From the NCBI RefSeq assembly GCF_008868125.1, contig NZ_WAAQ01000001.1:620001-684000 (forward strand): a stretch of 64,000 nucleotides of DNA, given 5' to 3'. Below, piece after piece: positions 7,672 through 64,000 of this stretch. Source of the DNA: Microbacterium maritypicum. Its GTDB lineage: Bacteria; Actinomycetota; Actinomycetes; Actinomycetales; Microbacteriaceae. Under the pieces are notes generated by a model, which had not been told where the DNA came from, ran no database searches, and saw nothing but the letters and a program-made list of their open reading frames with translations. A program made the translations under genes and the position numbers. Within the stretch, counting starts at the first letter, position 1, and each line of letters begins with the position of its first letter.

Positions 7672-9318
<1,647 letters not shown>

Positions 9319-9354
9319 GATCGTGAGTCCTTTGCGTGGTGGTCCCCTTCGGCT

Positions 9355-9445
9355 CCGTCGAGACCCACGGTGGTCGTCGAGACCCATCGCTGCAGGCGAT
9401 CGCGGCGGTGGGTCTCGACGGCGCCGATGGGTGTCGGCGAGACGG
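9355..9445. repeat. Interleaved GAGACCCA palindrome, locus B
   Basis: Between aceA and aceB lie two inverted-repeat pairs in the order AC, AT, AC', AT'. CCGTCGAGACCCAC (9355-9368) pairs perfectly with 9408-9421. CGTCGAGACCCATCG (9375-9389) pairs with two mismatches to 9425-9439. The pairs interleave rather than nest, unlike locus A. A small inner hairpin, ATCGC-TGCAG-GCGAT, is also present. Confidence 0.8.
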
Positions 9446-9462
9446 GGACGAGAAAGTGGGGA

Positions 9463-10788
9463 TCAGTGGAACTGCGCGGCTTCGGTGGAGCCGGCGAGGG
9501 CGAGCGTCGCGCTGTCGGGGTTGAGCGCGGTGGAGATGACGTCGAAGTAGCCGGTGCCCGCCTCGCGCTGGTGCTTGGTGGCGGTGTACCCGTCTGCTTC
9601 CGCGGCGAACTCGGCTTCCTGCAGCTCGACATAGGCGCTCATGGCGCGATCGGCGTAGCCGCGGGCGAGGTCGAACATCGAGTAGTTCAGGGCGTGGAAG
9701 CCGGCCAGGGTGATGAACTGGAACTTGTAGCCCAGGTCGGCCAGCTCCTGCTGGAACGTCGCGATCTCGGCGTCCGACAGGTGCTTCTTCCAGTTGAAGC
9801 TCGGCGAGCAGTTGTAGGCCAGGAGCTTGCCGGGGAACTCGGCGTGGATCGCCGCGGCGAAGTTGCGAGCGAGCTCGATGTCCGGCTCTCCCGTCTCGAC
9901 CCACAGCAGGTCCGCGTAGGGGGCGAAGGCGAGTCCGCGGCTGATGACCGACTCGATGCCCGGGCGGATCCGGTAGAACCCTTCCGTGGTGCGCTCGCCG
10001 GTGGTGAACTGCTGGTCCCGCTCGTCGACGTCGCTGGTGAGCAGGTCGGCGGCGAGGGCATCCGTGCGGGCGATGATGACGGTCGGCACTCCCGCCACGT
10101 CGGCCGCGAGGCGAGCGGCGTTCAGGGTGCGGATGTGCTGCTGCGTGGGCACGAGCACCTTGCCGCCGAGGTGGCCGCACTTCTTCTCGCTGGCCAGCTG
10201 GTCTTCCCAGTGGATGCCCGCGGCACCGGACTGGATGAGCGACTGCGCGAGCTCGTAGGCGTTCAGCGGTCCGCCGAAACCGGCCTCCGCGTCGGCGACG
10301 ATCGGGGCGAGCCAGTCCTGTGTGGTCTCGCCTTCGGCGTGCTCCAGCTGGTCCTGGCGGATGAGGGCGTTGTTGATGCGACGCACGACGGCCGGCACGG
10401 AGTTGGCGGGGTACAGCGACTGGTCAGGGTACGTCTGACCGGCGAGGTTGCCGTCGGCGGCGACCTGCCATCCGGAGAGATAGATGGCCTTCAGTCCCGC
10501 CCGCACCTGCTGCACGGCCTGGCCCCCGGTGTACGCGCCGAGCGCCCGGACGTAGTCCTCGGTGTGCAGGAGGTTCCAGAGGTTGTCGGCGCCGCGGTGG
10601 GCGAGCGTGGCCTCTTCGCGGACCGAGCCGCGGATGCGGATGACGTCTTCTGCCGAGTAGGTGCGCTCGACGCCGTCCCAGCGCGGGTCGGTGTCCCAGA
10701 TCTCCTGGAGCTCGGCGGCCGTCTGAACCTGGTCGCCGGCTCGCAGACCGGCGGGGCGGGGCGTCGGGGTGTGGGCGGTGTTCGTCAT
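9463..10788 (-). CDS. aceA: Isocitrate lyase
   Basis: This enzyme splits isocitrate into glyoxylate and succinate, the first step of the glyoxylate shunt. The 441-residue protein holds the family signature [15 protein letters not shown] with the catalytic cysteine in KKCGH (202-206), plus DAEAGFGG and [16 protein letters not shown] 10788 is used because the residues after it ([10 protein letters not shown]) run directly into the family N-terminus, and upstream in-frame sequence falls in the regulatory region shared with ramB. It is followed by aceB and divergent from the RamB-type regulator that probably controls it. Confidence 0.96.
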
Positions 10789-60019: not shown

Positions 60020-60622
60020 GTGTCCCGCATTCGTCCGTACCGCCCCACCGATCGTGCCGCGCTGTACGAGATCTGCGTGAAGACGGCGGATGCCGGGGCG
60101 GATGCGACCGGTGTGCTGTCGGACGATTCGCTGTGGGGCGACCTGTTCGCGGTGCCCTACGCCGAGCGTCATCCCGATCTCGCGTGGGTGGTCGAGAGCG
60201 ACGACGAGCGCACGATCGGCTACATCGTGGCGACGGACGACACCGACGCCTTCTACACCTGGTTCCGTGAGGAGTGGTGGCCGACGCTCGAGGGACGCCA
60301 CCCCCGGCCGGTGGAGGTGGCCACGCGGGAGGATCGGATGATCGACTACGGATACAGCCGTGCCGCCGGCATCGAGCCGAACGTCGCGGATCACCCGGCC
60401 CACCTGCACATCGACCTGCTTCCCGAGACTCAGGGGCAGGGTCTCGGTCGCCAGCTCATCGAGACGCTGTTCGCCGAGCTGACCCGGCGTGGGGTGCGCG
60501 GGCTGCACCTGGGGATCGACCCGAACAATGCCGGTGCCGCCGCCTTCTACGAGCGGCTCGGGATGACGCGCCTGCCGGCGGAGCCGGGTGGTCAGATCTA
60601 CGGCGTGCGCTTCGACGGCTGA
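60020..60622 (+). CDS. GNAT family N-acetyltransferase
   Basis: This 200-residue GNAT protein has the acetyl-CoA motif A as LPETQGQGLGRQLIETLFAE and motif B as GIDPNNAGAAAFYERLGM, preceded by a long N-terminal part (RPYRPTDRAALYEICVKTAD). The acceptor is unknown. GTG 60020 follows GAGGAG. The gene ends at the long terminator shared with tRNA-Ser. Confidence 0.87.
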   Translation: MSRIRPYRPTDRAALYEICVKTADAGADATGVLSDDSLWGDLFAVPYAERHPDLAWVVESDDERTIGYIVATDDTDAFYTWFREEWWPTLEGRHPRPVEVATREDRMIDYGYSRAAGIEPNVADHPAHLHIDLLPETQGQGLGRQLIETLFAELTRRGVRGLHLGIDPNNAGAAAFYERLGMTRLPAEPGGQIYGVRFDG

Positions 60623-60689
60623 GCCCTCGCGATTCCGGCGGCGAGGGCGGGCCCCGGTGCCCGCCCCTTCGGGGTCCCCAATGCCCCAT

Positions 60690-60735
60690 AAACAAGAAGA
60701 GAGCCCCCGCACCAGCGGGGGCTCTCTTCTTGTTT
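60690..60735. terminator. Bidirectional terminator with perfect 21-bp stem
   Basis: AAACAAGAAGAGAGCCCCCG plus C pairs perfectly over 21 bp with 60715-60735 around an ACCA loop. T-rich exits occur on both sides. It lies between the GNAT gene and the oppositely transcribed tRNA-Ser, ending both. Its last base is also the first base of the encoded CCA complement of the tRNA. Confidence 0.9.
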
Positions 60736-60822
60736 GGCGGTGACGGCGGGATTCGAACCCGCGGTTGCTTGCACAACACACGCTTTCCAAGCGTGCTCCT
60801 TCGGCCGCTCGGACACGTCACC
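60735..60822 (-). tRNA. trnS: tRNA-Ser (GGA anticodon), CCA encoded
   Basis: Read on the minus strand, acceptor GGTGACG/CGTCACC, discriminator G and CCA (60735-60737) frame a class II cloverleaf. The anticodon arm is CACGC-TTGGAAA-GCGTG with GGA, a long variable arm (TGTTGTGCAAGCAACC) follows, and the T arm is GCGGG-TTCGAAT-CCCGC. Confidence 0.96.
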
Positions 60823-60913
60823 AAGGAACAACCTGTCCATCCTATCCGATGCCGGGCGTGCGACAGGACAGATCGCCGACACCCGGACCTTCGGCACCCC
60901 CGGATGTGAAATA

Positions 60914-60942
60914 TTGCAAGTCACCTGCCGTCTGTATAGCCT
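60914..60942 (+). promoter_or_regulatory. Promoter candidate of the RiPP-like cluster
   Basis: TTGCAA (60914-60919) and TAGCCT (60937-60942) are 17 bases apart, 53 bases before the first gene. A short inverted repeat CGTATC-N12-GATACG (60953-60976) lies just downstream, where a regulator could block transcription. Confidence 0.45.
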
Positions 60943-60995
60943 CATCTGAGGACGTATCGCCTTCTATCGTGATACGACGTTTCTCTGGGGGAAGC

Positions 60996-62066
60996 ATGCA
61001 GGCGAGTTCGACGGCGACACGAAGCGGCCACCGCACCGCGACGGCTTTCGAGCAGTATGTGAGCGCACGGCGCGGGTTCGTCGAGGGAGCGGTGTTCTTC
61101 CTGGAATCCGGCACGCACCTCGAGGCGGTGCTGAGCGGGAGCAGGGCGGGGGACGTCGTCTTCACCCCGGCAGGCACGGCCGTGCGGAGCGATCCGCGAG
61201 TCGTCGAATACGACGGGCGCTTCTGCAGGCCCGGAGACCAGCTGACCCTCGACGGCCGCCAGACGCTCGAACTGCAGGAGTACGTCGCCGTGCCCTTCGT
61301 GTCGATCGTCGGGCCCACCGTCATCCGGCAGTGCAGCGCGGAAGGCGTGGCCGCCTTCTTCAGCGACGCCGACACGGCGAGGGAATCCGGCGTCTTCGTC
61401 GAGCAGCTGCTGAGCAGCGCCGTTCTCATCGACTCCCTCGTCTCCTTCGTCGGGACCGACCACCAGCCGGACGCTCTCGTGCGGGTCCACGTGAGCGCAG
61501 ATGGCGAGTATCGGGACGGCCCCGACGGACTCGTTATCGGGGAGGTCGGAGATGAGCGTGCGGACGTCGAGGCCCGCGCCGTCGACGGCGCGGGCCGAGG
61601 GCGGGCCTTCGCGCGCATCGTCGACCGCGGCATGTTCGAGGCCGACCTCGACGACAGACGGTGGCTCGCGCGGTACGTGGCGGCGCTCGAGATACTGCGT
61701 CAGTGGGACGGGATCCCGGCGCGTCCGGCGATCTCGGGGTTCGGTGGGCACATCGTGCGCGCGCTCGACGAACTCCCCGCGCTCCTGGGCGTCGTATCCG
61801 CGGACGCGCCGTTCCTGCTGACCGGCGGCGATGACGAGTATCTGCTGGTGGATCCCGTGACTCGTCGTCGGTTCCGCCTCGGGGTCGACGCCGCGCGTGC
61901 GGCCGAATGTCTGATCGCGACGGGAGACGAGTCGGCGGCGGTGTCCCTGCTCGCTGCCGAGCTCGACAGACGCGCGAGCAGCGTCGCTCCCGTGGTGCGG
62001 GAGGTCCGCGGCGACCTGGCAGCGGCGGGTCTCGACGTGGCCGCGAGCCGGGACGAAGGCCTCTGA
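60996..62066 (+). CDS. Unknown protein, possible daptide-type RiPP recognition protein (paralogue 1)
   Basis: No family is certain for this 356-residue soluble protein. It shares segments with the next gene: FFLESGTHLEAVL versus FLLEGGADVSDLD, DVVFTPAGTA versus DVVLLPAES, ELQEYVAVPFVSIVGPT versus ELQDYVAAAFVQIIGPT, DADTARESGVF versus DAELARRTGVF, and ISGFGGHIV versus ISGFGWSLI. Daptide clusters of Microbacterium encode a recognition protein next to a class III aminotransferase, which fits the third gene here. I did not identify an RRE fold by eye, so this is a contextual proposal. It is the first gene of the unit; the TGATG overlap couples the next one. Confidence 0.5.
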   Translation: MQASSTATRSGHRTATAFEQYVSARRGFVEGAVFFLESGTHLEAVLSGSRAGDVVFTPAGTAVRSDPRVVEYDGRFCRPGDQLTLDGRQTLELQEYVAVPFVSIVGPTVIRQCSAEGVAAFFSDADTARESGVFVEQLLSSAVLIDSLVSFVGTDHQPDALVRVHVSADGEYRDGPDGLVIGEVGDERADVEARAVDGAGRGRAFARIVDRGMFEADLDDRRWLARYVAALEILRQWDGIPARPAISGFGGHIVRALDELPALLGVVSADAPFLLTGGDDEYLLVDPVTRRRFRLGVDAARAAECLIATGDESAAVSLLAAELDRRASSVAPVVREVRGDLAAAGLDVAASRDEGL

Positions 62067-63115
62067 TGCGAGACGACGACCACGCTGCTCAGCCGGAGCT
62101 CTTCGGCGCCAGGGCGCTGCGCGAATGGATCACCGGCGAGCATACGGAGCACTCCCGGATCTTCCTCCTCGAGGGCGGAGCAGACGTCAGCGACCTCGAC
62201 GACGTGGCCGGTCACGACGACGTGGTCCTGTTGCCGGCGGAGAGCGCGCCGTATGACGGGCCGGCCGGCACCGCCCGGTACAGCGGCGCGCTGCGCGAGG
62301 TCGGCGACGAGCTCTTCTTCGGCGAACGCGGCGTCGAGCTCCAGGACTACGTCGCGGCGGCGTTCGTGCAGATCATCGGTCCCACCGCCGTCCGCTTCTT
62401 CGATGAGACCAGCTGGCGAGCCTTCCTCGACGATGCGGAACTCGCGCGCCGCACCGGAGTCTTCCCCTCGGCGTTGACCGATCCGCGGGTGCTTCTCGCC
62501 GATCGCGCTGCGCTGGTGAGGCCGGATGGGCTGGAGGCCCCGAGCGCTCTCAGACTGAGCCCGGACGGCGCGGTCAGCCTGGGCCTGCAGGGCGAGATCC
62601 TCGGCAGCACCGCCGATCTCGAGGCGCTGCTCACGGTTCCGCTGCCCGGTGCTGCGGCACTGGGAGGCGTCGTGCCCCGTGATGTGCTCGCAGCCGACCT
62701 GGCGTGTCGCGAGTGGATCGCGCGATACCTCGGAGCAACGGACCTCATCAAGATGCTCCGGCTGGAGACTGCGACCGCCAAGATCTCCGGCTTCGGCTGG
62801 TCGCTCATCGATGACGGGCGCGCCGACGCCGAACCGCTGGCCACGGATCCGTTCCTGCTCGACACCGACGACGGCTTCCTGCTCGCGGACATCGGATCCC
62901 TGCGCCGCCAACTGCTCTCGGCGTCGACGGCCGTCGTCGTCGCCGCCACGCAGACCTCCCGTTCGACCGAGGTCGCGGCCGACCGCGTGGCTCGACGGCT
63001 CGGCATCGCGACATCCGACGCCCGCGCCCTGTGCCGCGAAGCCCGCACGGCGCTCAGCGTCCACGTCGGCACGCCCGACGATGCGCGCTGCCGAACCGCG
63101 GGGGTCGAAGGGTGA
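62066..63115 (+). CDS. Unknown protein, possible daptide-type RiPP recognition protein (paralogue 2)
   Basis: This 349-residue homologue of the preceding gene, similar along the whole length but divergent, is a tandem duplicate that has drifted far. It lacks signal peptide and membrane spans. Its C-terminal third is helical, with DPFLLDTDDGFLLADIGSL matching APFLLTGGDDEYLLVDPVTR of the first copy. It overlaps both neighbours by one to four bases, so the three genes form one operon. Two copies may serve different precursor peptides or form a heteromer. Confidence 0.5.
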   Translation: MRDDDHAAQPELFGARALREWITGEHTEHSRIFLLEGGADVSDLDDVAGHDDVVLLPAESAPYDGPAGTARYSGALREVGDELFFGERGVELQDYVAAAFVQIIGPTAVRFFDETSWRAFLDDAELARRTGVFPSALTDPRVLLADRAALVRPDGLEAPSALRLSPDGAVSLGLQGEILGSTADLEALLTVPLPGAAALGGVVPRDVLAADLACREWIARYLGATDLIKMLRLETATAKISGFGWSLIDDGRADAEPLATDPFLLDTDDGFLLADIGSLRRQLLSASTAVVVAATQTSRSTEVAADRVARRLGIATSDARALCREARTALSVHVGTPDDARCRTAGVEG

Positions 63116-64000
63116 GCCTGCCGCACGCGCTGTGGACGTCGATGCTCCCTGCGGACGAGATCTTCACGCACGACCGCGTGGCCGTCGGCGCGGCAGGGAA
63201 CCGCATCGAGTTCGCTGACGGATCCACACGTCTGTGCGCGACGAGCGGTCTGTGGAACGTTCCGCTCGGCTTCGGGAACCCGGCGGTCGCCGACGCGGTG
63301 GACAGGGCCACGCGTGACGCCTCGTACCTGTCGTTGTTCAGAGCGCCCCATCGGTACGCGCAAGACGCGGCGGAAGCCCTCATCGAATTGGCGGACCCGA
63401 GCCGCTACCGCCGCGTCATCTTCTCCACGTCGGGCGGGGCGGCGAATGACGCTGCGATGAAGCTCGCACGCCAGTACTGGTCGCAGAAGTCGGGCGGGTC
63501 CCGTTCGATCGTGGTCGGTCTCCGAGGCGGCTATCACGGCACGATGTACGGAAGTCATGCCCTGAGCGGAGACGACCTCCTCCAATCCGCCTACTTCGTC
63601 GACCGCAGAGCGGTGAGACACGTCTCTCACAGCGACGACGGCGAAGAGCTGGAGACGCTGCTCAAGCGAGAAGGATCCAGGGTGGCGTCGGTCGTCGTGG
63701 AACCCGTCCTCGGCAGCGGCGCGTACGCGCTGTCGGAAGCGTTCATCGATCGCCTCCTCGCCCTCAGGGAGGAGTACGGCTTCCTGATTGTCGCCGATGA
63801 GGTCGCCACGGGGTTCGGCCGCACCGGGACGATGCTCGCCACCGACACCTGGGCGGCGGCACCGGATGTCCTGATCCTCTCCAAGGCACTGACGAACGGC
63901 GCGATGGGCGCCGCGGCGCTTCTGGTGGGTGACCGGGTCGCTTCCGAATTCGTCCGCGGGGGCTGGACGTTCGTCCACGGCGAGACGCAGGCGGGGACCC
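63112..64000 (+). CDS. Class III aminotransferase, daptide MpaD-like (5' part, runs off window)
   Basis: The reading frame is open from GTG 63112 to the window end, 296 codons. It shows the class III PLP layout: FADGSTRLCATSGLWNVPLG, FSTSGGAANDAAMKLARQYW, LRGGYHGTMYGSHALSG, VVVEPVLGSGAYAL, IVADEVATGFGRTGTM and the PLP lysine in LILSKALTNGAMG. The missing part is the C-terminal third. Daptide enzymes of this class aminate a ketone at the peptide C-terminus, later dimethylated. The assignment depends on the two genes upstream. The precursor, dehydrogenase and methyltransferase genes, if present, would lie to the right. Confidence 0.75.
   Translation, partial: MSLPHALWTSMLPADEIFTHDRVAVGAAGNRIEFADGSTRLCATSGLWNVPLGFGNPAVADAVDRATRDASYLSLFRAPHRYAQDAAEALIELADPSRYRRVIFSTSGGAANDAAMKLARQYWSQKSGGSRSIVVGLRGGYHGTMYGSHALSGDDLLQSAYFVDRRAVRHVSHSDDGEELETLLKREGSRVASVVVEPVLGSGAYALSEAFIDRLLALREEYGFLIVADEVATGFGRTGTMLATDTWAAAPDVLILSKALTNGAMGAAALLVGDRVASEFVRGGWTFVHGETQAGT

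Follow-up and report, generated by a model that had tools for sequence, protein, structure and literature searches.

Daptides are a recently described class of short peptides with a rare, charge-inverted C-terminus, in which the tail end becomes a second amine with a positive charge. Their decarboxylase works with the help of DapB, a protein of which most has no resemblance to known proteins. The stretch of Microbacterium maritypicum DNA analysed here (64,000 nucleotides, hereafter the window; G000:C1:620001-684000 of a 3.67-Mb genome) ends in what an earlier note had taken for the possible left edge of a daptide cluster, in which two tandem homologues are coupled to a class III aminotransferase. 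The locus raises the question of where a second DapB comes from and what it may do.

The daptide cluster and its precursors

The two tandem genes, dapB1 and dapB2, proved to be homologous (34% identical over 273 aa, with an E-value of 5e-27), and the aminotransferase gene, dapD, starts at 63112, overlapping the end of dapB2. The N-terminus of this enzyme, which had been called unusual, is ordinary for its family, the daptide aminotransferase model fitting it from profile position 1. The cluster was also expected to run past the window, and the sequence to the right (L004, G000:C1:679000-698000; window position = L004 position + 58999) indeed carries the remaining genes that the note had proposed to look for: three short precursors ending in Thr, a PF00465 dehydrogenase as the decarboxylase, a methyltransferase, a membrane protease of the M50 type and three genes that probably encode an ABC exporter, of which Pfam names the ATPase only. 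The left end of the cluster therefore occupies window positions 60996-64000, and its right end lies outside, at window-equivalent 70753. The order is dapB1-B2-D-C-A1-A2-A3-M-P-T1-T2-T3, with all genes on a single strand and overlapping or tightly spaced; at the B1/B2 and B2/D junctions the stop and start codons overlap. The features are as follows (bit scores with model cut-offs in brackets).

60020..60622, + strand: GNAT acetyltransferase gene (PF00583; found by tblastn in the loci at this site), a conserved left neighbour outside the pathway
60735..60822 (L004 1736-1823), - strand: tRNA-Ser(GGA) (ARAGORN), left border of the site
60911..60951, + strand: upstream element with ATATTG box, TATA-like stretch and palindrome (sequence pattern), a probable promoter/operator
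60996..62066 (L004 1997-3067), + strand: dapB1, 356 aa, N-terminal domain and C-terminal RRE (NF041823, 209.9 bits, cut-off 150; AlphaFold pLDDT 87.5)
61791..62045, + strand: predicted RRE of DapB1 (about residues 266-350)
62066..63115 (L004 3067-4116), + strand: dapB2, 349 aa, of the lineage of mpa-type clusters (NF041823, 282.4 bits, cut-off 150; AlphaFold pLDDT 91.3)
62825..63058, + strand: predicted RRE of DapB2 (about residues 254-331)
63112..64000, cut by the window end and continuing to window-equivalent 64371 (L004 4113-5372), + strand: dapD, class III PLP aminotransferase, 419 aa when whole (NF041821, 563.1 bits, cut-off 450; PF00202; Lys in an SKA motif)
L004 5369-6559: dapC (NF041822, 333.8 bits, cut-off 300; PF00465, 73 bits)
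L004 6560-6694: A1 precursor (NF041805, 91.6 bits, cut-off 40)
L004 6735-6860: A2 precursor (NF041806, 96.3 bits, cut-off 40)
L004 6897-7016: A3 precursor, TTG start (NF041807, 87.7 bits, cut-off 40)
L004 7081-7908: dapM, SAM methyltransferase (NF041820, 259.4 bits, cut-off 175)
L004 7895-9511: dapP, intramembrane protease (NF041824, 390.8 bits, cut-off 300; PF02163; HEGAH at 193)
L004 9582-10298: T1, first gene of the probable T1-T3 exporter, which includes an ABC ATPase with Walker A
L004 10295-11023: T2
L004 11020-11754: T3
from L004 11818: right neighbour of the cluster, which we take to be trhO, a rhodanese-type tRNA hydroxylase gene

All nine proteins from B1 to P thus pass NCBIfam daptide models, whereas the Pfam search gave no match for B1 and B2 and none above cut-off for T2 and T3. 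That the pair and its aminotransferase belong to some other pathway deserves almost no credence: in its favour, Pfam has no family for B1 and B2, and DapD draws scores below cut-off from many models of class III aminotransferases, but the daptide-specific models lie above their cut-offs, precursors are present and the downstream genes already contradict it. Taken whole, the cluster is very probably a full set of daptide biosynthesis genes of the mpa type, and by itself it is a further member of an already known class. Aligned to a solved iron-type dehydrogenase, DapC carries a D to E and an H to R change at positions that presumably correspond to the metal ligands of that enzyme.

To place the cluster among its relatives, we sampled 69 loci (our own and 68 regions from 67 other genomes), which were annotated with the window's own proteins. 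NF041823 matched in 68 of 366 genomes of the genus, and relatives of DapB2 in named loci came from Microbacterium in 15 of 15 cases. DapB exceeded 100 bits in 64 of the 69 loci, the weak ones (L078, L089, L105, L106 and L107) being left out of the counts; 18 of the 64 carry the B1-B2 tandem, 5 a solo gene of the B1 lineage and 41 a solo gene of the B2 lineage. One locus, L077, has B2, dapC and dapP each in two pieces and was therefore treated as poor sequence. Outside the genus, two full-length DapB copies were found neither in a family sample (398 genomes, 9 matches) nor in a class sample (394 genomes, 19 matches); two genomes (G756 and G1034) each have two adjacent DapB pieces covering different parts of the model. 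One genome, G102, has two separate daptide-type loci, L089 and L090, the former strongly diverged and with longer precursors (56 aa).

The precursors of the window cluster consist of a leader motif and a core, and A1, A2 and A3 all end in the Thr that the class requires; the A2 leader has METL in place of MEAP. Computed from the cores with Thr converted to Dmp, the predicted products have m/z 2349.29, 2319.30 and 2339.28, the A2 value assuming the same place of cleavage despite the change of Pro to Leu. The same calculation for the cores of L082 gave 2363.30, 2232.27 and 2339.28, which equal the m/z 2363, 2232 and 2339 given for mpa daptides 1-3 in the main text of Ren et al. 2023 (PMC10036551). 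The A3 core of the window is identical to that of L082, and the A1 and A2 cores differ from it at 2 positions each. The A1 leader of L082, ELDPMEAP, also agrees with the residues mutated in the main text of that paper, where cleavage is reported after a conserved Pro. All three mpa-mass cores occur together in four loci (L082, L083, L084 and L088), with the A1 of L086 one residue off, and from these masses we infer that the mpa cluster is of the kind found in these four. In the A2 leader, position -1 is Leu and not Pro in all 18 tandem loci; among the B2-only loci at the same chromosomal site that have precursors (n=27), we counted 12 Leu, 13 Pro and 2 Gln. These residues were counted by reading, as a regular expression matched other peptides in three of the tandem cases.

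The chromosomal site and its upstream element

Using tblastn with GNAT and TrhO, we located 51 of the 64 loci between tRNA-Ser(GGA) and trhO, namely all 18 tandem loci, all 5 solo B1 loci and 28 of the 41 solo B2 loci. A single flanking gene was detected in 6 of the 51 (L050, L066, L068, L072, L092 and L100), and the tRNA lies near dapB in 50, the exception being L100, whose stretch starts too close to dapB. In two genomes outside the 68 matching ones, G071 and G173, GNAT, tRNA-Ser(GGA) and trhO all fall inside a stretch of about 3 kb, the tRNA of G173 being on the opposite strand; in G071 one 311-aa ORF, without a match in a Pfam search, lies between tRNA and trhO. The cluster-free G136 has trhO and neither GNAT nor the tRNA nearby.

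A comparison of a tandem locus (L045) with a solo B1 locus (L066) was informative as to how clusters may alternate here. The left flank into B1 aligns over 4.5 kb at 96.5% identity and over another 5.4 kb at 92.7%, and beyond B1 only dapD aligns, partly and at 67%, the L066 stretch stopping after dapC. Within B1 itself the first 200 bases are 95-99% identical and the later bins 51-80%, a drop of the pattern expected from an exchange with one end inside B1. Altogether, the site behaves as a locus of exchangeable cassettes would.

Several loci depart from the common layout. The tRNA-Ser to dapB gap measures about 1.1-1.8 kb in L043, L049, L053, L056, L058, L067, L068, L072, L073, L093, L095, L096 and L099, which leaves space for an extra gene like the G071 ORF. 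In L058 (G246), a full-length solo dapB2 (8567-10544, minus strand) stands directly before trhO, and no other daptide genes were detected in its 19.9 kb, so that the cassette is apparently reduced to the recognition protein. The 13 remaining daptide loci, all of the B2 lineage (L069, L070, L071, L074, L076, L079, L081, L090, L097 and L101-L104), have neither flanking gene nor the upstream element described below.

The cluster had been thought to start with its own promoter. A scan of 60620-61060 for sigma-70 consensus promoters returned 0 sites, but a conserved element lies at 60911-60951. It combines an ATATTG box with a palindrome, CCTCA-TC-TGAGG at 60940-60951 (CYTCA-NN-TGARG across loci), as a rule 23 bases past ATATTG. 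In a search that reached as far as 400 bases upstream, tolerated one unpaired position among the 5 palindrome arm pairs and accepted six offsets, we found the element in 46 of the 51 loci at the site, our own included (18/18 tandem, 3/5 solo B1, 25/28 solo B2), and in 0 of the 13 loci elsewhere. The offset from box to palindrome is 29 bases in 40 of the 46. At arm position 2 the pair is C-G in 32, T-A in 10 and G-C in 3 loci, with one unpaired C-C, and both arms therefore co-vary. A stricter pattern matched once in the 3.67-Mb genome, as opposed to 0 times in a backward-read control. The element is supported by the constant offset, the paired arm changes and this single match, and is the probable promoter, with operator, of the cluster. 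An inverted repeat (CGTATC...GATACG, 60953-60976), flagged as terminator-like by the scan, lies just past the palindrome, upstream of dapB1.

The origin and predicted role of the second DapB

Structure prediction, which the earlier note had proposed for the two paralogues, gives each of them an RRE fold at its C-terminal end, and the RREs of lasso-peptide B1 and TbiB1 bound to their leader peptides are among the best structural matches to the two models. For the N-terminal domain, outside the RRE, the fold searches gave no convincing match, which is not evidence for a new fold.

The 18 upstream tandem copies and the 5 solo copies of the B1 lineage form one clade (100/100, branch 1.59). The five solo B1 clusters (type II hereafter) are a cluster type of their own, with two different precursors and with dapD in a separate clade (support 100). 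A recent duplication of dapB in tandem was considered and rejected, because the B1 clade is separate, includes the genes of this other cluster type, and the aminotransferases of those five clusters likewise form a clade apart. B1 is an old, separate DapB lineage, being the sole DapB of this second, diverged cluster type; when the tree was rooted with other genera, its position was weak (support 42). AU tests, with an outgroup of 8 rows taken from the 58 intact ones of the B2 lineage, rejected neither the tandem B1 genes as one clade (p-AU 0.234) nor the solo B1 genes as one clade (0.308).

The B1 of the window is 65-66% identical to those of L066 and L100, within the range seen for six tandem B1s (59-72%), while dapD of these two loci is 51-52% and dapC 34-36% identical to the window's, and dapM and dapP of L100 30% and 35%. 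For L068, L072 and L073 the B1 identity is 52%, 59% and 56%, with dapD at 50-52% and dapC at 32-34%. B1 thus has a history different from the rest of the cluster, clearly so in comparison with L066 and L100 and less clearly with L068, L072 and L073.

In 4 of the 18 tandem loci B1 lacks the RRE, its length being about 259 aa in L050, against 240 aa in L051, L055 and L059. Since L051, L055 and L059 group as a single clade and L050 ends differently, we tentatively count two losses. The B1 stop codon overlaps the B2 start in all 18 loci, the RRE-less ones included. By a simple counting method, dN/dS of the RRE-less B1 is 0.26 over 232 codons (L051 vs L059, the only pair behind this value), compared with 0.25 for the N part of B2 in the same pair, which shows purifying selection in the single testable pair. 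Among full-length genes, the N part has a dN/dS of 0.24-0.31 and the C part one of 0.25-0.37 in six well-diverged pairs, and so relaxed selection on the B1 RRE was not seen in these pairs; in the close pair L044/L047, where changes are few, the C part reached 0.61, and L045/L048, too close for the method, was left out. From these values, B1 is no obvious pseudogene.

In the pathway as we picture it, the RRE of DapB would grip the leader of A1, A2 or A3 and present the C-terminal Thr to DapC, which would oxidatively remove CO2 to leave a ketone. DapD would then add an amino group (which in T. fusca comes from the lysine epsilon-amine, according to the main text of PMC12338566), DapM would dimethylate the new amine, the intramembrane protease DapP would cut off the leader and T1-T3 would export the peptide, an order inferred by homology to the characterised pathway.

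What, then, might B1 add? It is absent from the mpa-type clusters known to work, and so the chemistry itself does not require it. According to the main text of PMC10036551, removal of the RRE abolished the activity of MpaB, and an RRE-less B1 is therefore unlikely to act as a DapB alone, needing B2 or having some other job. For this reason we favour a partner model, with B1 predicted to be a partner of B2 and not a second leader binder. That the two form one unit with DapC, in which B2 binds the leader and the N-domain of B1 is structural or activating, is possible, if short of probable. B1 may have entered the mpa-type cassette, or been kept in it, by recombination at the left end, the likeliest route since the B1 lineage alone serves a second cluster type at the same site.

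Alternatively, the two proteins could divide the labour, each binding different precursors, for example B1 serving A2, whose conserved Pro before the cut has become Leu. The Leu is found in 18/18 tandem loci as opposed to 12/27 B2-only loci at the site, and type-II leaders differ. The loci are related, however, so that these counts are not independent, 12 B2-only clusters have the Leu-type A2 without any B1, and the four loci with an RRE-less B1 keep all three precursors and the same A2 type, which leaves this reading unlikely. B1 could also be a passive leftover, stranded when recombination within B1 or directly behind it put an mpa-type cassette in the place of a B1-type one, and now decaying slowly. 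Its position as the left-most gene adjoining the shared flank would fit, as would the 93-96% identity of L045 and L066 across 9.8 kb from the left flank up to B1 and into it, followed by nothing but part of dapD at 67%, the missing RRE in 4/18 genes and the dN/dS of 0.61 in the C part of L044/L047. A decaying gene, though, sits poorly with ratios of 0.24-0.37 over both parts in the six well-diverged pairs and of 0.26 in the RRE-less one, and with the stop/start overlap kept in 18/18 loci, and we regard a mere remnant as quite improbable.

The partner model completes a wider picture of swappable cassettes at one site under a shared promoter/operator, one outcome of which would be a two-part recognition factor: B2 as leader binder, and B1, from the other cassette type, as a partner that works independently of its RRE, and wholly so in the four loci where that domain is missing. 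As a whole, this picture is tentative and open to considerable doubt.

Comparison with known systems

In the main texts covered, we found no published description of a tandem DapB; the main text of PMC12338566 makes no mention of a DapB paralogue, duplication or heterodimer, and the tandem at the cassette site is a variant that we did not find described in these texts.

The closest known system is the mpa cluster of M. paraoxydans DSM 15019, for which the main text of PMC10036551 gives the same Mpa1/Mpa2/Mpa3 precursor families, DapB-C-D-M-P and ABC genes, but one MpaB in place of the window's two DapB. The mpa-mass loci L082, L083, L084 and L088 share the chromosomal site and the A3 core with the window cluster and have one DapB each; the A1 and A2 cores of mpa differ from the window's at 2 positions each, and the window's A2 lacks the Pro at -1.

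The T. fusca and S. azureus clusters (Dommaraju et al. 2025, PMC12338566) follow the same B-C-D-M-P logic. Their DapC has altered metal-site residues, as that of the window cluster presumably does (D to E, H to R), and in TfDapC, where these residues are similarly lost, activity is reported to be metal-independent. In contrast to the window, the main-text passages of that paper describe a YcaO gene in both clusters and lanthipeptide-type tailoring genes in T. fusca, and mention no second DapB.

The type-II Microbacterium clusters (L066, L068, L072, L073 and L100) have a B1-lineage DapB, the same site and, as far as the stretches reach, the same kinds of genes, but no B2 and two other precursors; their DapC is 32-36% identical to the window's in five loci, and DapM (30-35%) and DapP (35-38%) in four, the L066 stretch ending earlier. 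This single-site cassette pattern suggests how daptide clusters diversify, and natural clusters in which one of two DapB copies has lost its leader-binding domain but is apparently still under selection offer a direct route to the role of the other part of DapB.
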